From: Sheuella amnicola
Lineage (GTDB): Bacteria > Pseudomonadota > Gammaproteobacteria > Burkholderiales > Burkholderiaceae_B
Length of the DNA: 64,000 nucleotides
Reading direction: 5' to 3'
NCBI RefSeq assembly: GCF_010499255.1
Contig: NZ_JAAGRN010000001.1
Span: forward strand, 124,001-188,000
Shown here one piece after another: positions 50,996-63,949 of the stretch. Below the pieces are notes generated by a model. The model made no database searches and was not told the DNA's origin. It saw only the letters and a program-made list of their open reading frames with translations. The translations under genes and the position numbers were made by a program. Each line of letters begins with the position of its first letter. The first letter of the stretch is position 1.

Positions 50996-51775
50996 TTATG
51001 TCCTTAGCGTGGCTACGACAGGGGTATGATCGGACGGTTGTTCGTTTCCACGCGGGCTCTTATCAATGATGCATTGCGTGCATGCATTCACAAGCGGTGC
51101 GGAAAGCAATACATGATCGATTCTGACACCCGCATTTCGTTTGAAACTATTCATGCGGTAATCCCACCAGCTGAATGATTTTGGCGGCTGTTCGAATAAT
51201 CTAAACGCATCCTTGAGTCCTAGGTCGAGCAGACTTTGGAGTGCGGCGCGTTCGGGCTCGGAGACGAGTACTTCACCCACCCATTTTTCGGGATTGTGGA
51301 CATCTTCATCGGCAGGCGCCACGTTGTAATCCCCCAGAACTGCAATGTTGGGATATCGCTGCATTTCGGATTGAAGCCAGCTTCTGAACGCCTCATACCA
51401 GGATAGTTTGTACTGGTACTTGTCGCTACCAACAGATTGTCCGTTCGGGCAATAAGCACTGATCACCCGAATCGATTCGGATCCAAAGGGGAGGGTTGTT
51501 GCCAGTACCCGCTGTTGCGGATCTTCAAAACCGGGAATGTTTCTGGTGATGTCCGCGCCAGGTTGCCTGGAGATGACCGCAACGCCGTTATATGTTTTTT
51601 GTCCAGCCCAGCCTGCGTGATATCCAATATCTGCAAATGCCTGTAAGGGGAACTTGTCGTGGTCGAGTTTCAATTCCTGCAGGCAAAGCGCATCGACAGG
51701 ATTGGTTTCCAGCCAGGACAGCACCTGCGGCAATCGCACTTTAAGTGAGTTCACGTTCCAGGTGGCGAGTTTCAT
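50996..51775 (-). CDS. xth: Exodeoxyribonuclease III
   Basis: 259-residue AP endonuclease and 3'-phosphatase/exonuclease of the EEP superfamily. Family landmarks: MKLATWNVNSLKVRLP, catalytic Glu in LCLQELKLDHDKFP, GDYNVAPADEDVHNP (Asp, Asn), and the C-terminal RIDHVLLSAPLV and SDHTPVVATL (Asp-His pair). It follows the photolyase on the same strand by 54 bp, adding a base-excision repair enzyme to the end of the light-linked cluster. Confidence 0.93.
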   Translation of the reverse strand: MKLATWNVNSLKVRLPQVLSWLETNPVDALCLQELKLDHDKFPLQAFADIGYHAGWAGQKTYNGVAVISRQPGADITRNIPGFEDPQQRVLATTLPFGSESIRVISAYCPNGQSVGSDKYQYKLSWYEAFRSWLQSEMQRYPNIAVLGDYNVAPADEDVHNPEKWVGEVLVSEPERAALQSLLDLGLKDAFRLFEQPPKSFSWWDYRMNSFKRNAGVRIDHVLLSAPLVNACTQCIIDKSPRGNEQPSDHTPVVATLRT

Positions 51776-51829
51776 GCATTAAATTCCGGAAATGACATAT
51801 GAATAGAACAAATTAAATCACGATCCGCC

Positions 51830-53362
51830 TCATAGAATCTTTTCTAACGTTCGATTAGCTTTGCTATTTATTTCGGCGAGTGTTTCTTCAGGCATGCGGT
51901 CAAGCTGGTGGTAGACCATTTTAAGTCGATGGTTATTCTCAAACCGGGTCCGATGCCGATCAAAAAAATTCCAATATAAGGCGTTGAATGGACAGGAGTT
52001 TTCTTCAGTCCTGGTCTTGGGGATAAATAGGCAGCCTTTGCAATGATCGCTCATGCGTTGAATATATGCTGCACTGCTGACGTAGGGTTTGGTTGCAAGT
52101 CGACCACCATCGGCCCATTGACTCATGCCAATGGTGTTGGGCGCCTCAACCCATTCAAAAGCGTCTATATAAATTCCCAGGTACCAATGGTGCAACTCGG
52201 TAGGATCCAATCCCGCCAACAACGAGAAATTACCGATCACCATCAGACGCTGAATGTGATGGGCGTAAGCATGCTCAAGAGATTGGCCAATCGCTTCAGC
52301 CAGGCAAGCCATATCCGTTTTACCTGTCCAGAACCAGGTCGGAAGCGCTTGATGGTGTTCCAGTTCATTGGCTTTAGTGTATTCGGGCATGCGTGCCCAG
52401 TAGATACCCCTGACATACTCTCTCCAGCCGAGAATTTGTCTGATAAAACCTTCACACGCATGGATGGGAGCAAGACCATCGCGCCAAGCTTGTTCGGCAC
52501 GAAGCACAACCTCGCTTGGATTGAGCATTTTCGTATTCAGCGCAAACGATAGCAGCGAGTGAAACAAATGCCAGTGATGTCTTGAAATCGCGTCTTGATA
52601 ATCGCCAAAGTAAGGTAAAACGTGATCGATGAAATATTCAAGCTGTTTCAGCGCCTCGTCTCGATCAACTGGCCAGCGAAAGTTATCGGCCTGAGGGTTG
52701 CCCATTGTTTTGATGCCTGCTTCAACGATCGTTTGCCATAGTGCACTGTGATCATGATTGGGACGGAAATCTATTGGACCAGCAGGGGTACCAGGCCACG
52801 ATTTGCGATTTTCGACATCAAAGTTCCATTGTCCGCCCTCGGGCTTTGAATCTGGCGCCATCAAAACATGGTGTGTACGACGCTGATGACGATAAAAGGT
52901 CTCCATGAGCCATGATTTTTTGATACCAAAGAGTTTTAAGGCATCGTCGCGCTGAGTGAAGTAATGCTCGCTGTCAACCATCTTAACCGGCACGCGGCAA
53001 TTTGAAGCCCAGTCTTTTATATTTTTATCCAGTCGCCACTCATCCGGCTCCTGATATTCGACAGACTTGGCATCATAATGATCGATGAGTGCATCCAGGT
53101 TGGATGTGATTTGATGGCGATTGCTTGGATGATCAATTCTGATGTACCGCACGCGATGTCCGGTCGATTTAAGCCTGTCGGAAAAAGCACGCATGGCGGC
53201 AAAGATGCCTAGTACTTTTTGTGCATGATGCAGTACATAGTCAGTCTCGCTGCGCACTTCCATCAATACGTATATAACCTGGTCGTTTGATTGATCAAAC
53301 CAGCTGTGCAAAGGATTCAGTTGATCGCCCAGGATTAGTCGCAGCGTGGGACGCATTTTCAT
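51830..53362 (-). CDS. Iron-sulfur photolyase/cryptochrome (PhrB-like, probable (6-4) type)
   Basis: 510-residue member of the FeS-BCP group (deoxyribodipyrimidine-photolyase-related). It begins LRLILGDQLNPLHSWF. The four cluster cysteines are Cys353, Cys441, Cys444 and Cys457 (MACLAEAI, DHCKGCLF, NSCPFNALY). The pattern matches Cys350/438/441/454 of Agrobacterium PhrB, a light-driven repair enzyme for (6-4) photoproducts that carries FAD, a lumazine and a 4Fe-4S cluster. It is the last gene of the operon divergent from the B12 photoreceptor gene and is only 18 bp from the NTF2-like gene. Confidence 0.92.
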   Translation of the reverse strand: MKMRPTLRLILGDQLNPLHSWFDQSNDQVIYVLMEVRSETDYVLHHAQKVLGIFAAMRAFSDRLKSTGHRVRYIRIDHPSNRHQITSNLDALIDHYDAKSVEYQEPDEWRLDKNIKDWASNCRVPVKMVDSEHYFTQRDDALKLFGIKKSWLMETFYRHQRRTHHVLMAPDSKPEGGQWNFDVENRKSWPGTPAGPIDFRPNHDHSALWQTIVEAGIKTMGNPQADNFRWPVDRDEALKQLEYFIDHVLPYFGDYQDAISRHHWHLFHSLLSFALNTKMLNPSEVVLRAEQAWRDGLAPIHACEGFIRQILGWREYVRGIYWARMPEYTKANELEHHQALPTWFWTGKTDMACLAEAIGQSLEHAYAHHIQRLMVIGNFSLLAGLDPTELHHWYLGIYIDAFEWVEAPNTIGMSQWADGGRLATKPYVSSAAYIQRMSDHCKGCLFIPKTRTEENSCPFNALYWNFFDRHRTRFENNHRLKMVYHQLDRMPEETLAEINSKANRTLEKIL

Positions 53363-53380
53363 TATGTAAATATCAGTGCC

Positions 53381-53830
53381 TTAACTACTGGCGCGGCGTT
53401 TTAGCCATCGCATCAGCACGCGAACCATCGGAAGTTTTTCGTAAAGCTCTTCTGCCGCATCCCAGTAGTCCCTGTGTAGCGTAACTTTTCCGTCCGCGTT
53501 GAATTTCAGATGAGATCCACCATGTATTGTTTGCATGGATTCTGTGTCAAAGCGTTTAAACCGGAATCGAAATTCCCAAACCAGAAAACATTGCCGATCC
53601 TGAACGATTCGCTCGGTCACGATAAAACGTGGTGAATCAAGTGTTTCGAACATGTGCGTAAAGATACTTTCGATTCCCTTCACGCCCAGAACATCGTTAA
53701 ATGGGTCTTTGAATTTAGCTTCCTGACTATATATATTCGCCAAGTTTTTAAGATTGTCAGGATCCAAGAGCTCAAAAAATTCTATCAGATTTTGAACCGC
53801 GTGCTCTATAGCTTGATGTGTGAGGTTCAT
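53381..53830 (-). CDS. NTF2-like (SnoaL_2) protein
   Basis: 149-residue alpha+beta-cone protein from the ATG at 53830. The frame is open up to 53866, but that would run into the SDR. It contains FFELLDPDNLKNLANIYSQEAKFKDPFNDVLGVKGI, typical of SnoaL-like folds, and a C-terminal HRDYWDAAEELYEKLP. Homologues are found in the same light or singlet-oxygen-induced clusters in many proteobacteria. The activity is unknown; a small-molecule isomerase or binding role fits the fold. It is four bases after the SDR stop. Confidence 0.82.
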   Translation of the reverse strand: MNLTHQAIEHAVQNLIEFFELLDPDNLKNLANIYSQEAKFKDPFNDVLGVKGIESIFTHMFETLDSPRFIVTERIVQDRQCFLVWEFRFRFKRFDTESMQTIHGGSHLKFNADGKVTLHRDYWDAAEELYEKLPMVRVLMRWLKRRASS

Positions 53831-53834
53831 TTCT

Positions 53835-54605
53835 TTAAAGGCCGGTGATGCGGCGAACCGCCGCAAAATATATCGGGTAGGGCAGTAGTCTGAGCAATTT
53901 CATGAAGCGCGTAAAACGTTTCGGAAAGTGAATTTCAAAATCACCATGAGACCAGCCCTTCAGAATGGCTTTCGCCGCGTCTTCAGGAGAAATCAATGCC
54001 GGCATATGGAAATCATTTTGCGCGGTTAAGGGGGTTCGAACAAATCCAGGGTTGATTAAACTCACGCCTAATCCCTGATGATGAAGGTCTAGGTAGAGGG
54101 TTTCAGCCAGATTGATGAGCGCCGCTTTGGTCGGGCCATAAGCCAGGCTTTGCGGCAGGCCTCGAAAGCCGGCCACGCTACTAATCAGACTGATATGCCC
54201 CTGTTTGCGGGTAAGCATATTCGGAATGACGGCATCCAAAACCTTCAACGCACCAATCGTGTTGATTTCATGATGTTTCAATAGTTCAGCTAAATCGATG
54301 TTGTCGGCTCTCATCGGTTTGTAGTGGCCTGCGCAATAGCACACAAGGTCGATCGCTCCATCCTTGGTTGCCAGATCCGTAGCTGAACGAATGGCCTCGC
54401 CGTCGGTGATATCCAGTTGCAAGGCCAGGCTGTCGGAATGGTGGCGCACAAACTCTTCCAGTGCATCGCGATTGCGGGCCGAAACGATCACTTGGGCTCC
54501 TTGCGCGTGTAATTGTTCCGCCAAGGCACGACCTATTCCGGTTGATGCGCCAATCAACCATACACGCTTATTTCGCCAATCGCGCAGTGGCGGGTTCATG
54601 CTCAT
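53835..54605 (-). CDS. SDR-family oxidoreductase of the light operon
   Basis: 256-residue SDR with WLIGASTGIGRALAEQLHAQG, the NNAG position replaced by CYCAGHY, the active-site Ser in ISSVAGFRG and YGPTKAAL (Tyr, Lys). The C-terminal part IHFPKRFTRFMKLLRLLPYPIYF is hydrophobic and basic, which could attach it to the membrane and suits a lipid substrate. Its start overlaps the DUF3833 gene by 4 bp. Confidence 0.86.
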   Translation of the reverse strand: MSMNPPLRDWRNKRVWLIGASTGIGRALAEQLHAQGAQVIVSARNRDALEEFVRHHSDSLALQLDITDGEAIRSATDLATKDGAIDLVCYCAGHYKPMRADNIDLAELLKHHEINTIGALKVLDAVIPNMLTRKQGHISLISSVAGFRGLPQSLAYGPTKAALINLAETLYLDLHHQGLGVSLINPGFVRTPLTAQNDFHMPALISPEDAAKAILKGWSHGDFEIHFPKRFTRFMKLLRLLPYPIYFAAVRRITGL

Positions 54606-55153
54606 GGCGCAAGCTTGCGAAACGATAATGTGACTTCTCCAAGCCTGATACCGAACTTGCTCATGGTTGCCCGGTTCAGCATGACTTGTTCGTCAACCAG
54701 ATACATCCAGTCATCAAATTGAACCTCGTAAACCTTATCATCTACTGGCAGTTTGAGGGTATAGGCCCATTGAAATGCATTGCCGATGGCTAGACCATCC
54801 GCAGTGCCCGCAACGTCGTCAGCTGTGCCCGTGTAACGACCATTCTCGTGTTTAGTCAGTCGCCAGATCCGTCTCTCTTTCTTGCCGTCGGAATATGAGA
54901 AATGTTCATCCAGTACACCATGATTGCCATCCCAACGCCCCTCCATGTCGACAGTGAATCGTTTAATCACTTGACCGCTGCGATCTTGAAATATGCCATG
55001 TGCGATGATTTTTCCGTTGAAATAGGTGGCTAAATCAAGCTGCGGCTTTTCATCTGCATAGCGCTGAATGTCCTGACTGGAACAGCCGGTCAGCGCAACG
55101 ATGGCCGCAGCAAGAGCGTGTAAAGCGCGACGCGATGCTTTGACGATCTTCAA
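54602..55153 (-). CDS. DUF3833 lipoprotein
   Basis: 183-residue protein with a lipobox (AIVALTGCSS) and then the DUF3833 fold: LATYFNGKIIAHGIFQDRSGQVIKRFTVDMEGRWDG, HFSYSDGKKERRIW, and QFDDWMYLVDEQVMLNRATMSKFG. It is predicted to be anchored in a membrane facing the periplasm. DUF3833 genes are regular companions of the Cfa/DUF1365/FAD-oxidoreductase cluster; the function is unknown. A lipid-binding role is a guess from the beta-rich fold and context. Confidence 0.85.
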   Translation of the reverse strand: MKIVKASRRALHALAAAIVALTGCSSQDIQRYADEKPQLDLATYFNGKIIAHGIFQDRSGQVIKRFTVDMEGRWDGNHGVLDEHFSYSDGKKERRIWRLTKHENGRYTGTADDVAGTADGLAIGNAFQWAYTLKLPVDDKVYEVQFDDWMYLVDEQVMLNRATMSKFGIRLGEVTLSFRKLAP

Positions 55154-56460
55154 TGGATATTCTCCCGGGTTGATTTGATTGACTGGCGCGATGAGTTACG
55201 AATAAATCCAGCATAAAGCCCTGCCGCCGCAAACAATTTGAGCGAACAGGGTAATAATGAGTAAGTCAAGCTAAGGGCATTTATTCCTGGAGCGGATGTC
55301 GTTCCGGGCTGATAACCGAGCCAGGCCAGAAATGGAAGCGAAAGACCTGCTGCCAGCGCTAAGTTGAGTTTGCTGGCAAGATTCCACCAGCCAAAATATG
55401 CACCCTCGCGCTGTCCGCTGTCTCCGCGTGCGTTGATGATTCCGGCAAGCATGGCACCAGGCAAGGCAAGATCTGTCCCCAAGGCTAAACCGGACAGCAC
55501 GCATACTACCCAGAAGGCCGTCACATCACCGCTTGAGAGCATGCCTGCCCAGGCAAACACAGTGATGGCAAGCAGCATGCCGATGAACCAGGTTCGGGCA
55601 AGTCCCCATCTGATCACCGCCCGCATCCACAAAGGCATGGATGCGGCAGCGCAGACGAAATAGGTCGCCAGAAAAAGTGGTTTGAGTTCAGCAGCGTTTA
55701 AACGATCCTCGATGAAAAACAGGACAAGCGTTGCCGGAATTGCACTTGCCATGCCGTTCAGCATGAAAACGATCATTAAATTAATGAATGGCTTGTTTAA
55801 CCAGGGGCGGATCAGGTCTTGTTTCCAATGAACATCAGCCGCATATTGAGAAACTGGGGGAGACTCGCTTCGCATCCAGGCCATCCAGCCGACTAATAGC
55901 ATGAGGGCAAATACACCGATCCATTGATCCCATCCCAGCCAGGCAGGCAATACAGATGCGAGAACAACACCAATCAGTCCGGCGCCTTCGCGCCACGCAA
56001 CAATACGTGCGCGTTGACCTTCATCACCACCGAGTCTTGCACCCCATGATTGATGGGATATGGCGAGCAAACTGAAAGCTAATGACGTGAATATCAAAAC
56101 GGCAAGCAGCGCGATTGGGGAATCGCGACGCGGCCAGGGAGGAAAAAAAAGCAACGTCATCCCGACAATTAAAGCCAGAGCCGCGCCCGCTCCGTAGAAC
56201 AGAACATATCGAGAAGAGTGAGCAAAAAGACGATCTGAAAAACGTCCCAGCCATGGGTCGGAAAAGGCGTCAAGTAGACGAGCAAGCAAAAGAACCAAAC
56301 CCAGAGTGACCAGGGACATGCCTTCTTTGCCGGCATAAACGTGTGGTAAGTGCACGTAAAGAGGCATGGCGACAAAAGCAAGCGGTAAACCCAACAAACC
56401 GTATCGCAGGCAGGTTCGGGTGTTGATTGTTTTGTCGACTCTCCAGTCTGGCTTCATCAT
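55150..56460 (-). CDS. MFS transporter of the GPH/MelB type
   Basis: 436-residue membrane permease with about 12 helices. The motif RLLDAFSDPWLGRFSDRL is the GPH-family (MelB-like) signature with the cation-site aspartates. The ATG pair at 56460 (MMKPDWRV) was chosen. The frame is open to 56532, but that lies within the chalcone-isomerase-like gene. Overlaps of 4 bp with DUF3833 downstream and a 2-bp gap upstream show that it is an integral part of the light operon. It might move a lipid precursor or a sugar; the substrate is unknown. Confidence 0.85.
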   Translation of the reverse strand: MMKPDWRVDKTINTRTCLRYGLLGLPLAFVAMPLYVHLPHVYAGKEGMSLVTLGLVLLLARLLDAFSDPWLGRFSDRLFAHSSRYVLFYGAGAALALIVGMTLLFFPPWPRRDSPIALLAVLIFTSLAFSLLAISHQSWGARLGGDEGQRARIVAWREGAGLIGVVLASVLPAWLGWDQWIGVFALMLLVGWMAWMRSESPPVSQYAADVHWKQDLIRPWLNKPFINLMIVFMLNGMASAIPATLVLFFIEDRLNAAELKPLFLATYFVCAAASMPLWMRAVIRWGLARTWFIGMLLAITVFAWAGMLSSGDVTAFWVVCVLSGLALGTDLALPGAMLAGIINARGDSGQREGAYFGWWNLASKLNLALAAGLSLPFLAWLGYQPGTTSAPGINALSLTYSLLPCSLKLFAAAGLYAGFIRNSSRQSIKSTRENIH

Positions 56461-56462
56461 AA

Positions 56463-57077
56463 TCAGTCGATCATGCCGCGGCCCAGAAGCGCCATACGCA
56501 TCTCCGGCTCGGATGTATTGGGCGAAAGCCAAATGCCGAAGAATAGGCGGGCAAAATCGGCATCATCGATTTGTCCGATTTGTCGACCGTTATACCAAAA
56601 TACAGCCCCTTGACCCGGTATGTGTTGGCCTGTTAGCCGATCGCCTGACTTCACATCCGGGAAGATGGCTTTCATTTCTTCTAGCCATTTTTTGGCTTGT
56701 GAATCGGATACTGCCGCAGCACGAAGCATTTCTTTTAAAGACCGCTCCGCTATAGCGTTTCCATTCAAAGACCGTAAATATTCCAGCTCCAGGACCACAG
56801 GTTGATCACCCGCTATGCCGACACTAAACGACGGCAGCGTCCATAGTCGGGCATGATAGATTTCCATTCCCCAGTAGCGCATGGTCGCCTTTCCCTGAAG
56901 CCTGCTTTCCGGAAGTTGGGGATGGCTGCCACCACCAAGAGATTTAGTCTGTTCGAATGTTTCCTGTTGGGGTTGAACCGGATTAGAGTATGTTGTTCCA
57001 TTCCATCCTAGTAAGATGGCTAGTGTCCAAATAATCAAGGCAATGGATTTACCGCTCCAGTGTGTATTGAACGACAT
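56463..57077 (-). CDS. Chalcone-isomerase-like periplasmic protein
   Basis: 204-residue protein with an N-terminal signal segment (IALIIWTLAILLGWNG) and a chalcone-isomerase-like domain: KATMRYWGMEIYHARLWT, LELEYLRSLNGNAIAERSLKEMLR, and FFGIWLSPNTSEPEMRMALLG. The ATG at 57077 has GGGAG six bases upstream; the longer frame to 57152 would overlap the methyltransferase by over 100 bp. Bacterial CHI-like proteins usually lack flavonoid isomerase activity, and some CHI-fold relatives bind fatty acids, which would suit this lipid operon. Confidence 0.82.
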   Translation of the reverse strand: MSFNTHWSGKSIALIIWTLAILLGWNGTTYSNPVQPQQETFEQTKSLGGGSHPQLPESRLQGKATMRYWGMEIYHARLWTLPSFSVGIAGDQPVVLELEYLRSLNGNAIAERSLKEMLRAAAVSDSQAKKWLEEMKAIFPDVKSGDRLTGQHIPGQGAVFWYNGRQIGQIDDADFARLFFGIWLSPNTSEPEMRMALLGRGMID

Positions 57078-58272
57078 CGATATCTCCCGCTTCGAAACCA
57101 GCCTCACAATAAGCCAAATAGAAATCCCATATGCGAATGAATCTTTCGTCAAATCCTAGGCTTAATACGTTGTCACGCTTGGCAAGAAAGTCATTTCGCC
57201 ATCTGCGGCAAGTCTCTGCATAATCGCGTCCGAAGCAATACTCGTCGATGATTTTCAAGCCTGCCTTGCCGGCTTCGCGCTTGAATGAGGACGGTGAGGG
57301 CAGACAACCGCCCGGGAAAATGTATTGCTGGATAAAGTCGGTCGATCGAATATAGCGATCGAACAAATCATCGCGAATGACGATGCTCTGAATACAAGCA
57401 CGTCCGGACGGTTTAAGCAGGCGGGAGATGGTTTCGAAATAGGTCGGCCAATACTCCTGTCCGACTGCTTCAATCATTTCGATTGAGCAGATTGCATCGT
57501 AAGGTCCATCATTAATATCTCGGTAGTCTTGCAGACGCAAGTCGGCTTTGTCGGCGAGTCCTTGTCCAGCAAGCCGTTCCTTTGCCCAGGATAGTTGCTC
57601 GGTTGATAATGTCACGCCGGTGATATGTGAATTGAATTCTTTGGTGGCTTTTTCTGCTAATGCACCCCAACCGCAACCGATTTCCAGCACACGATTTCCT
57701 TCGCGGGCGTTAACCATATTTAACGCTCTGCGAACTTTGGCATGTTGCGCTTGCTCGAAGTCTTGTTCCAGATCGCCATTAAAAATGGCTGATGAATAAT
57801 TCATCGTACCGTCCAACCAGGATGAGTAGAACGCATTGCCCAGGTCGTAGTGTGCGTGGATATTCTTGCGGCTGTTGCTTTTGGTGTTGCGATTAAGCAA
57901 ATGGCGTATACGATAAAGCAAGCGTCCGGCCCAATTGCCGTGAATCACTTGATCAAGCGCGTTTCGGTTCGCGATAAAGAGTCCCATCAAAGCCGGCAAC
58001 TGCGAAGTAGTCCAATCACCATTCAAATAGCTTTCGGCAAATCCGATGTCGCCTGATTTAAGCGCTGCGGAAAAAGGATTCCAGTTATGCATTTGCATAC
58101 TGACATGCGGTCCATTACCGTCACCTACGGTGTGCGCACTGCCATCGGGCAATCTGATTGTTAACGAACCATGCTTGAGCTTTTGTAAAAGCTTGAAAAC
58201 ATATCTAGCCGAAGGGGTCGCCATTTCGGGTAGCGATAAGGAAGTCTGATTCGATGCAGTTAACGTATTCAT
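57049..58272 (-). CDS. Cyclopropane-fatty-acid synthase family methyltransferase
   Basis: 407-residue SAM-dependent enzyme acting on unsaturated acyl chains of membrane phospholipids. Landmarks: HYDLGNAFYSSWLDGTMNYSSAIF, the SAM site VLEIGCGWGALAEKA, EMIEAVGQEYWPTYF (bicarbonate and active-site region) and QYIFPGGCLPS. The N-terminal domain with KSGDIGFAESYLNGDW is present. Family members make either cyclopropane acids or methyl-branched acids; the neighbouring flavoprotein and DUF1365 gene are typical of the latter kind of cluster. It overlaps the chalcone-isomerase-like gene by 29 bp. Confidence 0.9.
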   Translation of the reverse strand: MNTLTASNQTSLSLPEMATPSARYVFKLLQKLKHGSLTIRLPDGSAHTVGDGNGPHVSMQMHNWNPFSAALKSGDIGFAESYLNGDWTTSQLPALMGLFIANRNALDQVIHGNWAGRLLYRIRHLLNRNTKSNSRKNIHAHYDLGNAFYSSWLDGTMNYSSAIFNGDLEQDFEQAQHAKVRRALNMVNAREGNRVLEIGCGWGALAEKATKEFNSHITGVTLSTEQLSWAKERLAGQGLADKADLRLQDYRDINDGPYDAICSIEMIEAVGQEYWPTYFETISRLLKPSGRACIQSIVIRDDLFDRYIRSTDFIQQYIFPGGCLPSPSSFKREAGKAGLKIIDEYCFGRDYAETCRRWRNDFLAKRDNVLSLGFDERFIRIWDFYLAYCEAGFEAGDIDVVQYTLER

Positions 58273-58288
58273 GCGCTAATTTCCAGAT

Positions 58289-59059
58289 CTAACGGGTAAC
58301 GATTTGGTCGGGAGCTGAAGGCTTGCTGTAAAAACCAACGCGCTTGAGCCATAACTTGAGTGCTTGCCAATGAATCCGTGCCATCACCATGAGTGTCATG
58401 GCAGGGTAGTGCAAAAGAGCTTTACGAAGTGCTTTTTTATCGATGGGTTCAAGTACGCCACTTACGCTGGTGTTGAGAAGTGGTCCGTTTTCATCTTCAA
58501 GATCAATTCTTACCACGGTACGCTCTTTGAGTTGCTGGACAGTTCGCATGAATCTGAAGCTGTATTGACCTTCGACACGGCAAAAGGGCGATACATGAAA
58601 ACACTTGCGCGCCCGAAGCTCTGCTCCATACCTGGGCGATTCGAGTAAGTAGCAGTGTCTTTCACCAAAGGTGTTGTTGACTTCCACCAGTATTGCGCGA
58701 AGCGAACCGTCATTTCGGTGGCAGTACCAGAAGCTTACGGGCTTAAAGGTGTAGCCTAGCATGCGTGGATAAGTATGAAGCCAGATTTCACCATCCGCGT
58801 CATTGATGCCTTCATTGCAAAGCACCTCTTCGAGCCAGCCAAGAGCGCCGCCGGCTTCTGGACCACGTCCATCCCCATGATCAGAATCAAAAAAACTGAT
58901 GCCTGCCCGTTTGTTGATCGCCAGTCCACCCATCGCATCGGTATTTTTTAATTGACGCATCGGAAGCATCAGAAAGAAGGTGCCATATACGAAACTGTTG
59001 CGTTTGGGACGCAACCGCGTATGCCTAACCTGACCGAATCCGATTTGAGCGATGTTCAT
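58289..59059 (-). CDS. DUF1365 protein
   Basis: 256-residue DUF1365 protein: GQVRHTRLRPKRNSFVYGTFFLMLPM at the N-terminus, then LHTYPRMLGYTFKPVSFWYCHRNDG, VEVNNTFGERHCYLL and FHVSPFCRVEGQYSFRF. DUF1365 genes nearly always sit between an FAD oxidoreductase and a Cfa-like methyltransferase. The biochemical role is not established; participation in fatty-acid modification is inferred. It overlaps the oxidoreductase stop by 4 bp and has a 16-bp gap to the methyltransferase. Confidence 0.9.
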   Translation of the reverse strand: MNIAQIGFGQVRHTRLRPKRNSFVYGTFFLMLPMRQLKNTDAMGGLAINKRAGISFFDSDHGDGRGPEAGGALGWLEEVLCNEGINDADGEIWLHTYPRMLGYTFKPVSFWYCHRNDGSLRAILVEVNNTFGERHCYLLESPRYGAELRARKCFHVSPFCRVEGQYSFRFMRTVQQLKERTVVRIDLEDENGPLLNTSVSGVLEPIDKKALRKALLHYPAMTLMVMARIHWQALKLWLKRVGFYSKPSAPDQIVTR

Positions 59060-60360
59060 GCTGCAGCCTTACGTAAAGATGAAGTCCTCTCGAGAACGTC
59101 TATCGCGACCGCCAAGCCTGACTTCAGGCCGTCTTCATGAAATCCATATCCCGTCCATGCACCGCAGAACCATGTGCGCTGATTGCCTTGTAACTCAGGT
59201 ATGCGTTGTTGTGCCTCAATGGCAGTCAAGTCGAAGACTGGATGGCTATATTCGAATTGAGCCAGAATTTTCGCCGGGTCGATCGGCCTGATCGGATTCA
59301 GTGATTCGACAACGGGTTGATCGAAAGGCAAGGGCTGCAATTTATTTAGTAAATAGTGCAGGCACACTCTTGTTGATTCTTGCTGCTCATCAGCAGCACG
59401 TTCATAGTTCCAGGCAGCCCATGCACTTTCCCGTTGCGGAAGAACAGATGCATCCGTATGCAATACGGCAAGATTATCCTGATAACGAATGGCACTCAAA
59501 ACTTCATGTTCAAGTGGCGTTGGCTGACTGAGCATGGCTAATGATTGATCGGAGTGCGTGGCAATCACCACGAAATCGAATCGTTCGCTGCCGTGATTCG
59601 TATGGATCACGACGCCCGCAGCATCCCTGTCTATGCGCATGACTGGAGTATTTAATCTGGCATCTGGAATGTCAGCAATGATTTTTTCGACGTAATTCCT
59701 TGCTCCACCCACAACGGTATGCCATTGAGGTCGATCATTGACTTGCAGCAGGCCATGATTGTGGCAAAAACGTATCATGGTGGCGACCGGAAACTTCAAC
59801 ATCTGATCAGTTGGACAGCTCCAGATGCACCCCAGCATCGGTAAGAAATACCAGTTGCGAAAAGCCTGACTGAAATGATGTCGATTCAAAAAATCCAGCA
59901 GAGGTTCGGCTAGTTCCGACTCTTTTCCATGTTTTGCCAGTTGGGTGCACAGACGGTTAAAACGAAGAAGATCCTTGAGCATCCCAAGAAACTTCGTATT
60001 GAACAAATTACGTTTCTGTGCGAATACCGTCCTGAGGTTATTTCCACTCCACTCGAGTGATTTACCACCTTTAGATCCCGGTACCTGCACCGAAAAAGAC
60101 ATGTCCGAATGCGCTGTTTTCACATCCAGCTCTGCAAACAAAGAGATCAAGTTCGGGTAAGTACGCTCGTTGAAAACCAGAAATCCTGTGTCGACACCCC
60201 AGGTTTGGTTACCACTTGATGAGGGAAGCGTGATGTCGACAGTATGCGTGTGGCCGCCGAAATAGTTGCCGCCTTCAAACAAGGTGACATGCGCTTGGTG
60301 CCGCAATTTGTGCGCCGCAGCTAGTCCGGAAATGCCTGATCCAACAATTGCGACTTTCAT
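59056..60360 (-). CDS. FAD-dependent oxidoreductase (amine-oxidase-like), first gene of the light operon
   Basis: 434-residue flavoprotein. The FAD-binding motif VAIVGSGISGLAAAHKLRHQ is at the extreme N-terminus, followed by LVFNERTYPNLISLFAELDV, FDFVVIATHSDQSLAML and the C-terminal GNQRTWFCGAWTGYGFHEDGL that closes the FAD site. Relatives next to Cfa-like genes are proposed to desaturate or rearrange fatty acyl chains. Its ATG at 60360 is about 24 bases downstream of the predicted start site of the divergent light promoter. Confidence 0.9.
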   Translation of the reverse strand: MKVAIVGSGISGLAAAHKLRHQAHVTLFEGGNYFGGHTHTVDITLPSSSGNQTWGVDTGFLVFNERTYPNLISLFAELDVKTAHSDMSFSVQVPGSKGGKSLEWSGNNLRTVFAQKRNLFNTKFLGMLKDLLRFNRLCTQLAKHGKESELAEPLLDFLNRHHFSQAFRNWYFLPMLGCIWSCPTDQMLKFPVATMIRFCHNHGLLQVNDRPQWHTVVGGARNYVEKIIADIPDARLNTPVMRIDRDAAGVVIHTNHGSERFDFVVIATHSDQSLAMLSQPTPLEHEVLSAIRYQDNLAVLHTDASVLPQRESAWAAWNYERAADEQQESTRVCLHYLLNKLQPLPFDQPVVESLNPIRPIDPAKILAQFEYSHPVFDLTAIEAQQRIPELQGNQRTWFCGAWTGYGFHEDGLKSGLAVAIDVLERTSSLRKAAA

Positions 60361-60371
60361 TAAAATCTCTT

Positions 60372-60419
60372 TTTTGTCCTAGACAAAACGATTCTATGTT
60401 AAATTTGTCCAAGCTGCAA
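60372..60419. promoter_or_regulatory. Light-operon promoter with overlapping GACAAA operator repeats
   Basis: Read on the minus strand: -35 TTGCAG (complement of 60414-60419), a 17-bp spacer, then -10 TAGAAT (complement of 60391-60396). The spacer holds GGACAAA. Around the expected start site lies the palindrome TTTTGTC-CTA-GACAAAA (60372-60388), giving three GACAAA-type half-sites in total. On the plus strand the same palindrome overlaps a possible -35 (TTGTCC 60374-60379; TGTTAA -10 after 17 bp) for the regulator gene. This layout suits repression of both directions by the MerR/B12 protein. Operator identity is inferred. Confidence 0.65.
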
Positions 60420-60464
60420 AGGTTATTTTTCTAATTTTTCTAGGCTTATCCAATACGCCGGCTA

Positions 60465-61487
60465 ATGAGTAAAAAAGCGTTCGACCATCCTGTTGCCACT
60501 AATTCGTCCGGGTTGACCTGGTCGATTTCCGACGTCGAACGCGAAACGGGTCTCGGTAAGGACACGTTGCGGGTTTGGGAGCGTCGATACGGCTTTCCCG
60601 CTCCTCTGAGGGATGCGCTTGGCGAACGAGCATATCCGGATGACCAATTGAACCGGTTGAGAATGATCAGGCGTTTGCTTGATGCGGACCATAGACCGGG
60701 AAAAGTGGTTTCCCTTCCGCTAGAAGCCTTGCAAGATCTGCTCAGTGTGCAGAATGCTCGTGATCCACATCCACAAATTAAACGTAAAGTCCAAACAAGA
60801 CCCAAAACCAATTCCGTCATCGAACCTGATTCGTTTTCGAAAGATAACGAGGATGTATGGGTCGGATGGCTGAAAAGAGACGAAACACATCAAATCAAGC
60901 AGGCTTTGCAGCAAAATATTTTGATGCATGGTTTGGGCTATGTTGTAGAAAATCTGGCTGCTCCACTTTGCCGCTTGGTTGGACAGGCATGGATGAGTGG
61001 GGATATATCGGTTTACCAGGAGCATTTATTCACTGAGACTTTGCAATCCGTATTACGTGAAGCGATTGCTTCAATTGATGCCGTGGTCCAAACAAGGGGA
61101 TGCAGACCTCGTGTTCTGCTGACAACCACACCTAACGAGTTGCATAGTCTTGGTTTGCTTATGGTCGAGTGCCATTTTGCCCTTGCTGCCTGCGAGCGTT
61201 TTGTTTTAGGCACATCTACACCCATAAGCGACATCATCCAAGCTGTAGAGCGATTGAATATCGATGTTCTTGCCATCAGTTACAGCCCGTACGCATCAAG
61301 AAAAGAAGTACTGGATAGTCTTCAGCAATTGCGAACTCATATAAATGATGCTGTAGATATTTGGGTCGGAGGTGCGGGTGCATACGCGAATAGACGTTTG
61401 CTTCCCGAAGGGGTGGAATTGATGCGTAAAGCATCGGATGTATCTGATCAAGTTGCCGCTTGGAGAAGTCGACACGGTCGACAGTAG
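60465..61487 (+). CDS. litR: MerR-type B12-dependent photoreceptor regulator (CarH/LitR-like)
   Basis: 340-residue regulator. A MerR winged helix (WSISDVERETGLGKDTLRVWERRYGFP, residues 19-45) is followed by a linker, a helical cap and a Rossmann-like cobalamin-binding domain. Trp176, Glu186 and His187 form the Wx9EH motif that CarH-type proteins use to hold adenosylcobalamin. His227 in NELHSLG is the expected lower cobalt ligand. In CarH/LitR, dark AdoCbl-bound tetramers repress and light breaks the Co-C bond, releasing DNA. It is divergent from the photolyase/lipid operon and followed by lipocalin and cho. The ATG at 60465 has no clear Shine-Dalgarno sequence. The symbol rests on motif and context. 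Confidence 0.88.
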   Translation: MSKKAFDHPVATNSSGLTWSISDVERETGLGKDTLRVWERRYGFPAPLRDALGERAYPDDQLNRLRMIRRLLDADHRPGKVVSLPLEALQDLLSVQNARDPHPQIKRKVQTRPKTNSVIEPDSFSKDNEDVWVGWLKRDETHQIKQALQQNILMHGLGYVVENLAAPLCRLVGQAWMSGDISVYQEHLFTETLQSVLREAIASIDAVVQTRGCRPRVLLTTTPNELHSLGLLMVECHFALAACERFVLGTSTPISDIIQAVERLNIDVLAISYSPYASRKEVLDSLQQLRTHINDAVDIWVGGAGAYANRRLLPEGVELMRKASDVSDQVAAWRSRHGRQ

Positions 61488-61516
61488 AAATTGTTTTAAC
61501 GTTGTAGAGGTGGTAA

Positions 61517-62059
61517 TTGAATTCAATCAAAGTTTTTTTCATTATCCTGTTCGGATTGTTTGGGCAAAATGTTTATGCTCAGTCAGACGCTCCACTAACA
61601 TCGATACCAAGCCTCGATGTTCAAAAATATCTTGGGCGTTGGTATGAGATTTCCAAGTTTCCGAATAGTTTTCAAAAAAAATGTGTTGCAAAAACATCGG
61701 CTGAATACGAATTAAACACAGATGGGTCATTGCGCGTTTTGAATCAGTGTCAGCTCGCCGATGGTGAGATGAATCAGGCGATTGGTCAGGCTAAACAAAT
61801 CGGAGATAGTCATTCAGCAAAGCTCGAAGTCAGGTTCGCACCGATCTGGCTCTCTTTTCTGCCGTTCGTCTGGGGTGACTACTGGGTTATCGATCTGGAT
61901 GAAAATTATCAATTGGCTGCAGTCAGCGAGCCCTCGAAAAAATACTTGTGGGTCTTGTCGCGTACACCTGTTGTAGATGAAGCGAAGTATTCAGCTTTGC
62001 TGAAACGCTTGACAGCCATGGGTTTGGATGTAAGTCGTCTTGAAAAGTCTCCACAGTGA
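61517..62059 (+). CDS. blc: Bacterial lipocalin (Blc-like), secreted
   Basis: 180-residue lipocalin. The TTG start at 61517 has GAGGTG six bases upstream and opens a signal peptide (VFFIILFGLFGQNVYAQ). The lipocalin signature is YLGRWYEISKFPNSFQKKC, followed by VEVRFAP-type strand sequence (LEVRFAPIWLSF), WVIDLDENYQLAAVSEPS and LWVLSRTP. Unlike E. coli Blc there is no lipobox, so it appears to be soluble in the periplasm. Blc binds lysophospholipids and fatty acids. It is 29 bp behind the photoreceptor gene, so it is probably cotranscribed and part of membrane repair. Confidence 0.9.
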   Translation: MNSIKVFFIILFGLFGQNVYAQSDAPLTSIPSLDVQKYLGRWYEISKFPNSFQKKCVAKTSAEYELNTDGSLRVLNQCQLADGEMNQAIGQAKQIGDSHSAKLEVRFAPIWLSFLPFVWGDYWVIDLDENYQLAAVSEPSKKYLWVLSRTPVVDEAKYSALLKRLTAMGLDVSRLEKSPQ

Positions 62060-62072
62060 CAATGCCAATTTA

Positions 62073-62894
62073 ATGCAGTCTGATTCGCATCGAATCGATC
62101 AGGCGTCATTGGCCGCGTTGCCCAGAAGTCCGGGTGTATATATTTTTAAAGGCGAAGGGACACTGCCGCTTTATATAGGCAAAAGCATCGATATTCGTAC
62201 CCGAGTGCATTCGCATCTGCGAGCCAGGGATGAAGTGCGAATGATTGCGCAGTCCCGTAAAGTTGAATTTATCGAAACGGCTGGTGAAATCGGAGCCTTG
62301 CTACTTGAAGCACGATTGATCAAGCAGCAAAGTCCTTTGTTCAATATACGATTGCGTCGTTTACGCAATCTTTGTTCAATCCGACTATCAAAACACTCCG
62401 ATTTTTCAGTCACCCCTGAAATTGTCTCCGGTCATGACGTCTGTCCAGGTGAAGCTGAAAATCTTTACGGGCTTTTCGGCTCAGTGCATGCCGCTCAAAA
62501 AAAACTTCGCGAATTAGCCGGAATCCACCGGTTGTGCCTTGGACTGATCGGACTGGAAAAAATCGGTAAGCGCGGATGCTTTGGCCTGCAAATCAAGACT
62601 TGTTTAGGTGCATGCGTGGGACAGGTGGATAGAAGCGAACATGATCTCAGGTTGTTGAATGCCCTGGATGCGTTGCGTGTTCATGCCTGGCCTTATCGCG
62701 GCGCAGTGGATCTGATTGAGCAACAAGGCGACTGGATTCAAAAACACCGAGTGCAGAATTGGCGGTACTTGAGCACATGGTGTTCGAAGACGAATCAGCG
62801 CACCCAATTCGAGCAACACGAGTTCGACTTGGATACTTACAAAATTCTGGTGAAACCTGTCATGCTAGGTACGGTTCGCATTGATCAGATATAA
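62073..62894 (+). CDS. cho: Cho-like UvrC-homologous excision-repair endonuclease
   Basis: About 273 residues. The N-terminal GIY-YIG nuclease domain is PGVYIFKGEGTLPLYIGKSIDIRTRVHSH, followed by EIGALLLEARLIKQQSPLFNIRLR. The UvrC-like Cys-containing segment GIHRLCLGLIGLEKIGKRGCF..CLGACVGQ resembles the cluster-type cysteines of UvrC/Cho. The C-terminal UvrC endonuclease V half is absent, as in Cho, which makes the 3' incision at bulky lesions. ATG at 62073 was chosen; TTG at 62040 in frame would overlap the lipocalin. Its end overlaps the convergent alr by 10 bp. It extends the light unit with nucleotide-excision repair. Confidence 0.87.
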   Translation: MQSDSHRIDQASLAALPRSPGVYIFKGEGTLPLYIGKSIDIRTRVHSHLRARDEVRMIAQSRKVEFIETAGEIGALLLEARLIKQQSPLFNIRLRRLRNLCSIRLSKHSDFSVTPEIVSGHDVCPGEAENLYGLFGSVHAAQKKLRELAGIHRLCLGLIGLEKIGKRGCFGLQIKTCLGACVGQVDRSEHDLRLLNALDALRVHAWPYRGAVDLIEQQGDWIQKHRVQNWRYLSTWCSKTNQRTQFEQHEFDLDTYKILVKPVMLGTVRIDQI

Positions 62895-63949
62895 ATCTTT
62901 GGAACCCGTTTCAAGTTGCACAGCGGTTCGTAAGAAATAGTCCCTGCCTTTTGTGCCACGTCATTAATATCGACGAGCGGCCCCCAGCATTCGACCGAAC
63001 TACCGATTCCTGCTTGAGGCAGATCTGTCAGGTCGATAGTCAACATATCCATTGAAATGCGCCCGATTGTGCGGGTGAGTTGTCCATCCACGGCAATAGG
63101 GGTGCCGGTCGGCGCTGTTCGAGGATAGCCATCTGCATAGCCGATGGCTACCAGCCCTACGCGAGTCGATTTTTCTGCAGTAAACGTTGCCGCATACCCC
63201 AAGGATTGTCCGGGCATGAGCGTTCTTATGGCAAAAACTTGACTCTGCAATGTCATGACCGCTTTGAGTCCGTGGTTTCTGTTGGGCATGGGGTCCGCAC
63301 CGTAAAGCAAAATCCCCGGGCGAGCCCAGTCTCGATGCGCCTTGGGCCATGCAAGAATTCCGCCCGAGTTCGCCAGGCTGCGATCTCCCGGTAAACCAGC
63401 TGTGGCAATATCAAAAACCTCGATCTGGTTTTGAGTCATTTTGTTGTCCGGCTCGTCGGCGCAGGCAAAATGACTCATGAAGGTGATTTGCCCGACTCCG
63501 GGGCAAGCCTTGAGGCGGGCATAGACAGCTTTGACCAAGTCGGGTTCGAAGCCGGCTCGATGCATACCCGAATCCACTTTGAGCCAGACGTTCAGAGCGC
63601 CGGGCCTGGTTTGAGTGTTTTCGATTGCAGTCAGTTGAGAGTCCTGATGGACAACAATCCACAAATCGTGGGCTATTGCCGCATCCAGATCCTGTTGATC
63701 AAAGCACCCCTCAAGAACCAGGATCGGATTGGATATGCCCTGTGTCCTGAGCTCAATGGCTTCAGCCACAAACGCGACCGCAAATCCATCAGCATCATCG
63801 GTAAGCGCTTTGGCGCAAGCTACCGCACCATGGCCATAGGCGTTGGCCTTCAATACGGCCAGCGCACGACCCCCATGCATTGATCTGGCTAATTTGTAAT
63901 TGTGGCGTAGTGCCGATAGATCGATCAGTGCACGGGATGGTCTTGTCAT
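62885..63949 (-). CDS. alr: Alanine racemase
   Basis: PLP enzyme of 354 residues that makes D-alanine for peptidoglycan. The PLP lysine is in LAVLKANAYGHGAVA near residue 34. The rest of the fold includes LKVDSGMHRAGF, SHFACADEPDN, NSGGILAWP, ARPGILLYG, and the second-subunit catalytic Tyr in SLGYAATFTAE. C-terminal beta domain ISMDMLTIDLTDLP. It converges with cho with 10 bp of overlap. Only 51 bases remain upstream inside the window, without a clear promoter. Whether it is the biosynthetic (alr) or catabolic (dadX) form cannot be told; the general symbol is used. Confidence 0.92.
   Translation of the reverse strand: MTRPSRALIDLSALRHNYKLARSMHGGRALAVLKANAYGHGAVACAKALTDDADGFAVAFVAEAIELRTQGISNPILVLEGCFDQQDLDAAIAHDLWIVVHQDSQLTAIENTQTRPGALNVWLKVDSGMHRAGFEPDLVKAVYARLKACPGVGQITFMSHFACADEPDNKMTQNQIEVFDIATAGLPGDRSLANSGGILAWPKAHRDWARPGILLYGADPMPNRNHGLKAVMTLQSQVFAIRTLMPGQSLGYAATFTAEKSTRVGLVAIGYADGYPRTAPTGTPIAVDGQLTRTIGRISMDMLTIDLTDLPQAGIGSSVECWGPLVDINDVAQKAGTISYEPLCNLKRVPKIYI

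Follow-up and report, generated by a model that had tools for sequence, protein, structure and literature searches.

Our analysis of a 64,000-nucleotide stretch of the Sheuella amnicola genome (contig NZ_JAAGRN010000001.1, positions 124,001 to 188,000 of the forward strand; hereafter the window) points to a laterally acquired photoprotection cassette, in which a MerR regulator (carH) bound to adenosylcobalamin (AdoCbl) would repress a divergent nine-gene operon in the dark and release it in the light. We put the probability of this reading at about 0.7. The operon appears to join the ufaD, ufaO and ufaM genes of furan-fatty-acid synthesis to a photolyase gene. Four parts of the reading, namely the gene families, the pocket residues of the regulator, the link between operator and regulator and the apparent lateral origin, can be read from the sequence as such.

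A first-pass annotation of the window had described twelve genes at this place: the regulator, nine tightly packed genes divergent from it, and a lipocalin gene and cho behind it. All twelve were recovered at their positions and with their families using Pfam and NCBIfam models (the Cho model below its cut-off). After three starts were moved to internal ATGs, the nine minus-strand genes are separated by −29 to +18 bp, and ufaD lies 104 bp from the start of carH. On the other side, the lipocalin gene starts 29 bp behind carH, and cho comes next on the same strand, overlapping the lipocalin gene or, with the alternative start ATG 62073, following it after 13 bp. Beyond the photolyase gene, the resident xth gene begins after 54 bp on the same strand, and read-through from the cassette into it is possible. 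No Rfam element was found in the window at gathering scores.

Relatives were taken from a family sample of 200 genomes, in which the query and 20 others carry a full-length regulator orthologue, and from a scan of named genomes, which gave at least 582 regulator relatives, the best 80 of which were kept. Neighbourhoods were counted in these 100 loci (20 and 80), chosen by carH similarity. The gene set goes beyond chance, because of the 73 loci that extend 6 kb or more on the divergent side, 63 have the whole trio of ufaD, ufaO and ufaM facing carH, and a carH gene facing the ufa operon is widespread in Burkholderiales. The 64 loci with 9 kb on the divergent side hold sdr in 55, duf3833 in 54, gph in 48, ntf2 in 47, chi in 34, a glutathione-peroxidase-like gene (gpx) in 33 and folE2 in 31 cases. 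On a plasmid of Azoarcus sp. KH32C the regulator is accompanied by the operon genes ufaD through ntf2, their order unchanged. In the gap between carH and ufaD a sigma/ChrR pair had been expected; instead, most of the 17 gaps that were read in relatives contained folE2, a glutathione-peroxidase-like gene or the two together (e.g. L034, L061, L064). folE2 is likewise part of the light regulon of Pseudomonas putida, a statement which, like most of those on published systems below, draws on excerpts of the papers (those named in place and PMC9758184, PMC5241685, PMC11796333, PMC5507510, PMC8508746, PMC6739363 and PMC8156234). A locus of the carH-ufa type is also present in metagenome-assembled genome (MAG) records that bear the names Bordetella parapertussis and Chitinophaga pinensis (L079, L125, L059); these labels look doubtful.

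The two arms share a conserved palindrome. 8-mers from TTTGTCCTAGACAAA are enriched upstream of carH, with CTAGGACA present in 49 of 101 upstream regions (the query's own included) against 0.3 expected. A site with at most two mismatches to TTTGTCYWRGACAAA occurs in 86 of the 101 (29 perfect, 43 with one and 14 with two mismatches), against 0.3 in Markov-resampled regions. Outside this discovery set the operator recurs at four plasmid-borne orthologues (Azoarcus, Eleftheria, Comamonas and Caballeronia, with 0, 0, 1 and 2 mismatches, respectively), three of which adjoin genes other than ufa. It is absent from the upstream region of Thermus carH (best site 5 mismatches), from the ufa operon of the query's congeners in all 13 readable cases (3 to 5 mismatches within 1200 bp; a fourteenth sequence was too short) and from three extracytoplasmic function (ECF) sigma factor loci with a ufa operon (6 to 7 mismatches in 250 bp). 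The query genome holds one perfect operator, at 60373-60387, and no other site with 0 or 1 mismatch, and twelve hand-picked genomes of relatives hold one to three sites each at no more than one mismatch (25 in total versus 4 for a reversed control pattern). A genome-wide regulon was rejected: the eight other sites in the query genome all have two mismatches and are no evidence of a regulon, since the reversed control yields 35. The palindrome lies just downstream of a promoter-like pair (TTTGCA-18-TAGAAT), over the expected +1 of the ufa operon, which is where a repressor would sit; taken alone the promoter call is weak, because the scan gave 12 promoter-like sites and shuffled sequences 16.9. 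The sequence pattern argues for one operator, linked to the regulator and serving between the two arms.

Some relatives deserve mention in their own right. On the Eleftheria terrae plasmid (L207) the regulator orthologue and a near-perfect operator adjoin a gene with a fasciclin domain, imuA and polymerase genes lying close by, and on the Comamonas endophytica plasmid (L206) they adjoin chemotaxis receptors and a BLUF protein. In two loci of the query's own family (L031, L032), both with regulator and ufa operon, the palindrome is missing, and the best-matching site there, TTTGTATAATACAAT, suggests that the operator may have changed.

The first-pass annotation had placed both arms under one control, with DNA repair genes at both ends. 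The photolyase end holds: the photolyase gene belongs to the ufa operon, and its product matches PDB 7ykn, 3zxs and 4dja at E < 1e-130 and has Cys353, Cys441, Cys444 and Cys457, which we take to be the ligands of an iron-sulfur (FeS) cluster. A photolyase gene beyond the ufa operon, as in the query, was seen elsewhere in Tepidicella xavieri (L054) only; most loci end near there. That carH, the lipocalin gene and cho form a second, light-driven repair arm is doubtful. The short gaps on one strand speak for it, as do the lipocalin genes in two ECF-type Ufa loci, which also make co-regulation of the lipocalin gene with carH plausible. Against it, no site with three or fewer mismatches precedes the lipocalin gene or cho, and the synteny comparison among carH relatives, which bears out the ufa trio, gives no such backing downstream of carH, where the 86 loci with 3 kb hold phr in 27, a lipocalin gene in three and cho in none. 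The claimed excision-repair end is therefore not supported; for co-regulation of cho adjacency is the sole argument, and we regard it as unsupported. The cho product (62040-62894) has excinuclease Cho as its best NCBIfam model, below cut-off, and no Pfam match. The two ECF-sigma Ufa loci lie on Burkholderia anthina and Caballeronia plasmids (L203, L205) and have an extra DUF1295 gene, an S-adenosylmethionine (SAM) methyltransferase gene and the lipocalin gene beside ufaD-ufaO-ufaM.

By its domains and fold the regulator is a LitR/CarH-type MerR protein, with an N-terminal MerR helix-turn-helix (PF13411, 47.2 bits, cut-off 21.6), both B12-binding domains (PF02607, 30.9 bits, cut-off 23; PF02310, 37.6 bits, cut-off 32.1) and a fold match over residues 121-337. 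Class II LitR identity was rejected, as the second B12 domain, PF02310, is retained. The residues Trp176, Glu186, His187 and His227 pointed out in the first-pass annotation align to W131, E141, H142 and H177 of Thermus thermophilus CarH (TtCarH, strain HB27), and these AdoCbl pocket residues are kept in 101 of 101 sequences. A PF01923-type adenosyltransferase was found in the genome, and none of the CobA/BtuR type. From these features we infer B12 binding, a response to light and repression.

Several observations weigh against a B12 photoreceptor acting through this operator. His132 of TtCarH is Met177 here, and none of the 101 sequences has His at this position; R176 and D201, which presumably act at an interface, are likewise replaced. 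The NCBIfam CarH equivalog NF052513 gives 118.3 bits, below its cut-off of 400, and 15 of the 101 upstream regions have no site with two mismatches or fewer. Three of the four elements of the published signature (GxxW, EH, GxxH, GxxxP) are present, and GxxH reads NxxH; in CtMerR of Chloracidobacterium thermophilum the Gly of GxxH is described as acting via its main-chain carbonyl. TtCarH uses His132 after photolysis (bis-His ligation), and most TtCarH H132A stays tetrameric in light (PMC10442372). In addition, betaproteobacterial (Burkholderia) LitR of class III is reported to need a chromophore other than B12.

Two alternatives follow from these points. The regulator might bind AdoCbl and repress, with light failing to dissociate it for want of His132, and so report B12 supply or redox state. 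The H132A result and the missing His would fit; in contrast, CtMerR has Arg at position 132 and yet goes from tetramer to monomer in light, an earlier report cited in PMC10442372 has full-length H132A disassembling, and the photolyase of the operon needs light to act. We consider this scenario improbable. A shade less probable still is a regulator that senses light via another chromophore, or senses reactive oxygen, with the B12 pocket as a relic. Besides class III LitR, a published model that places a Vibrio cholerae MerR protein under reactive oxygen species would favor it, but the pocket W, E, H and H are invariant in the 101 sequences (class III LitR being known here by description).

The membrane lipid change that the first-pass annotation coupled to DNA repair is retained, since lipid genes and photolyase share one operon, and its "remodelling" can now be specified as probable furan-fatty-acid synthesis. 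The first three genes of the operon, encoding an FAD desaturase, a DUF1365 protein and a Cfa-like methyltransferase, are consecutive and appear to match ufaD, ufaO and ufaM of the Rhodobacter pathway, the assignment being made by family and gene order and the Rhodobacter proteins compared by description. The ufaD-like gene adjoins the DUF1365 gene, as RSP1091 adjoins RSP1090 and RPA2571 adjoins RPA2570. Furan fatty acids scavenge singlet oxygen. In Rhodobacter sphaeroides, a triple mutant regained a methylated furan fatty acid through UfaM, UfaD (the FAD enzyme) and UfaO (DUF1365) together; the ufaD-ufaO pair (RSP1091, RSP1090) belongs to one operon there and ufaM (RSP2144) lies elsewhere, the three genes are RPA2569-2571 in Rhodopseudomonas palustris, and furan fatty acids are described as part of the protection against membrane-damaging agents (PMC7380195).

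The Cfa-like protein matches Escherichia coli cyclopropane synthase (PDB 6bqc) over 54-404. In the 85 readable of 86 rows, S, A or G stands in place of C139 of that enzyme and Q in place of H266, with E239 and Y317 retained. We take C139 and H266 to be its bicarbonate ligands, and their replacement is more in keeping with a UfaM that adds methyl branches than with a cyclopropane synthase. That the operon is no furan-fatty-acid pathway at all and the Cfa-like gene makes a cyclopropane or plain methyl-branched lipid would suit a Ufa assignment made without direct alignment to a characterised Ufa protein and a UfaO with no PDB relative up to E = 1, but it is very improbable given the intact trio and the two replaced residues. 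A hidden carotenoid arm was rejected: the SQS_PSY proteins of the genome are HpnC and HpnD only, and the genome seems unable to make carotenoid.

The cassette seems to have come from a different bacterial lineage. Of 31 congeners, 25 have matches to alr and xth on one contig and strand; the two matches are 45-138 bp apart in 16 of these and 0.3-7.9 kb apart in the remaining nine. In the query the distance is 11,109 bp, a span that corresponds to the interval given in the first-pass annotation. The GC content of the cassette is 0.485 against a mean of 0.514 in 82 equal-length overlapping windows outside (standard deviation 0.008, lowest 0.503). The regulator shares 61% identity with a Limnohabitans protein (best-80 scan) and at most 47% with those of the family sample, in which none of 10 congeners has a full-length orthologue. 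A ufaD match was obtained in 28 of 31 congeners at 49-54% identity where mostly covered (up to 59% in short pieces). In the operon tree the query forms a group (support 99/98) with one Comamonadaceae MAG and two Limnohabitans, joined next by Tepidicella (96/99); the query ufaD is 73-78% identical to theirs, and a topology forcing it together with six congeners was rejected (log-likelihood 205 lower, p-AU 3.5e-6).

In the congeners the ufa operon stands in another setting: where the neighbourhood reaches upstream (13 of 14 fetched), a second chalcone-isomerase-like gene precedes ufaD in 13 of 13 and a TetR gene lies upstream in 12 of 13 (not L189); a gene which we take to be rdgC is present in 10 of 13. 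The query genome has a single ufaD, and within 18 kb around its rdgC-like gene no TetR and no ufa gene was found, so the TetR-linked operon of the genus was probably replaced by the light-linked one. The first-pass annotation saw here a possibly undescribed form of regulon. Its carH-ufa core is common in Burkholderiales and thus not peculiar to this locus, and class II LitR and ECF/ChrR parallels are in print; what is peculiar to the query is the cassette between alr and xth, neighbors in congeners, and the grouping of the operon with Limnohabitans. Insertions at the alr-xth junction also recur elsewhere in the genus: a 1031-aa open reading frame (ORF) lies there in one congener (L199-L201 set), one gap of 7.9 kb has an ORF presumably resembling an integrase, and two congeners each carry a pair of roughly 280-aa ORFs, which we take to resemble AbiE.

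In the proposed mechanism, the regulator, carrying AdoCbl from the cell's own adenosyltransferase, would bind in the dark to the palindrome that covers the ufa operon start, thereby repressing this operon and probably carH. In the light, cleavage of the Co-C bond would cause the regulator to leave the operator. A single transcript would then supply UfaM, UfaD and UfaO for methyl-branching, desaturation and O2 insertion, yielding furan fatty acids that protect the membrane, as well as the accessory proteins and the FeS photolyase, which would repair DNA with the same light that induces it. carH and the lipocalin gene would rise together with the operon. All features are listed in Table 1.

Table 1. 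Features of the cassette and its flanks (window coordinates).
Feature	Coordinates	Strand	Basis
Cassette between xth and alr, 11,109 bp	51776..62884		Congener synteny, GC, operon tree
Operator TTTGTCCTAGACAAA, perfect palindrome arms	60373..60387		Sole 0-1 mismatch site in own genome
Additional half-site TTTGTCC	60404..60410	+	Role presumed
Sigma-70-like operon promoter, TAGAAT with 18-bp spacer to TTTGCA (by eye 17 bp to TTGCAG)	60391..60420	-	Promoter scan
carH/litR-like MerR regulator with B12-binding domains	60465..61487	+	Pfam, alignment, fold match
ufaD-like FAD desaturase	59056..60360	-	PF01593 (Amino_oxidase); adjoins DUF1365 gene
ufaO-like DUF1365 protein	58289..59059	-	PF07103, 265.9 bits
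ufaM-like SAM methyltransferase	57049..58272	-	PF02353 (CMAS); two presumed cyclopropane-synthase bicarbonate ligands replaced
Chalcone-isomerase-like protein, start moved to ATG 57077	56463..57077	-	PF16036 (Chalcone_3)
GPH/MFS-type transporter, start moved to ATG 56460	55150..56460	-	PF13347 (MFS_2)
DUF3833 protein	54602..55153	-	PF12915
Short-chain dehydrogenase (SDR)	53835..54605	-	PF00106 (adh_short)
NTF2/SnoaL-like protein, start moved to ATG 53830	53381..53830	-	PF12680 (SnoaL_2)
FeS-type (6-4) photolyase/CryPro family	51830..53362	-	PF04244 (DPRP); PDB matches; four Cys
Blc-type lipocalin	61517..62059	+	PF08212 (Lipocalin_2)
Cho-like endonuclease, ATG 62073 possible	62040..62894	+	NF007833, 293.1 bits, below cut-off 367
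Flank: exodeoxyribonuclease III (xth), resident gene	50996..51775	-	TIGR00195
Flank: alanine racemase (alr), resident gene	62885..63949	-	PF01168

In a wider frame, we give even odds to a B12 photoreceptor lineage that spans Burkholderiales, lacks the His132 switch and commands, via TTTGTCYWRGACAAA, furan-fatty-acid protection and photolyase rather than carotenoids; in the query, a laterally acquired light-response unit would have put a pathway that is TetR-linked in the genus under a B12 light sensor. If so, B12 photoreception would not be confined to carotenoids but would take in antioxidant membrane lipids throughout a large order of bacteria, and one protective operon would be found beside four kinds of regulator: ECF sigma/ChrR, class II LitR with LOV, TetR and B12-type LitR. 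The absence of His132 from all 101 sequences would offer a natural test of its disputed role, and with the operator pattern the claim can be put to a direct test in type strains. Type strains with a locus of this kind include Curvibacter delicatus NBRC 14919, Tepidicella xavieri DSM 19605 and Rubrivivax benzoatilyticus JA2. Our searches of an open-licence library gave no paper that pairs a LitR of the B12 type with the Ufa operon in Burkholderiales, which is not proof that the system is unpublished.

The nearest published system is the LOV-dependent class II LitR regulon of Pseudomonas. In the excerpts at hand, the class II LitR proteins of P. putida and P. mendocina (PplR/PmlR) govern light-inducible phrB, ufaM and folE2, the P. 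mendocina pmlR1 region also has an SDR and an FAD oxidoreductase, and PmlR2 is a repressor relieved in light. These regulators work with a separate short-LOV light sensor and keep only the four-helix part of the B12 module, whereas the query regulator has its AdoCbl pocket residues intact, and their operator is TGTACA-N12-TGTACA, unlike TTTGTCYWRGACAAA. The RpoE-ChrR (ECF11) regulon of Rhodobacter sphaeroides, P. syringae and Azospirillum has overlapping targets (ufaD, ufaO, ufaM, SDR and phrB), and Azospirillum thermophilum has FAD-DUF1365-methyltransferase-MFS-DUF3833 genes in the vicinity of a ChrR/sigma pair; the regulator of this system is an anti-sigma/sigma pair and not a MerR protein, and ECF/ChrR co-control in the query genome was rejected, with no match to the ChrR-type cupin PF12973 (Cupin_7). 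TtCarH has the same fold and pocket as the query regulator, and its gene is divergent from a phytoene-synthase-family gene and phr, with uvsE near. The two proteins share 28.6% identity and differ at His132, R176 and D201, the Thermus upstream region is without the query operator, and the Thermus target is carotenoid. CtMerR, finally, has Arg at the position where the query regulator has Met177.

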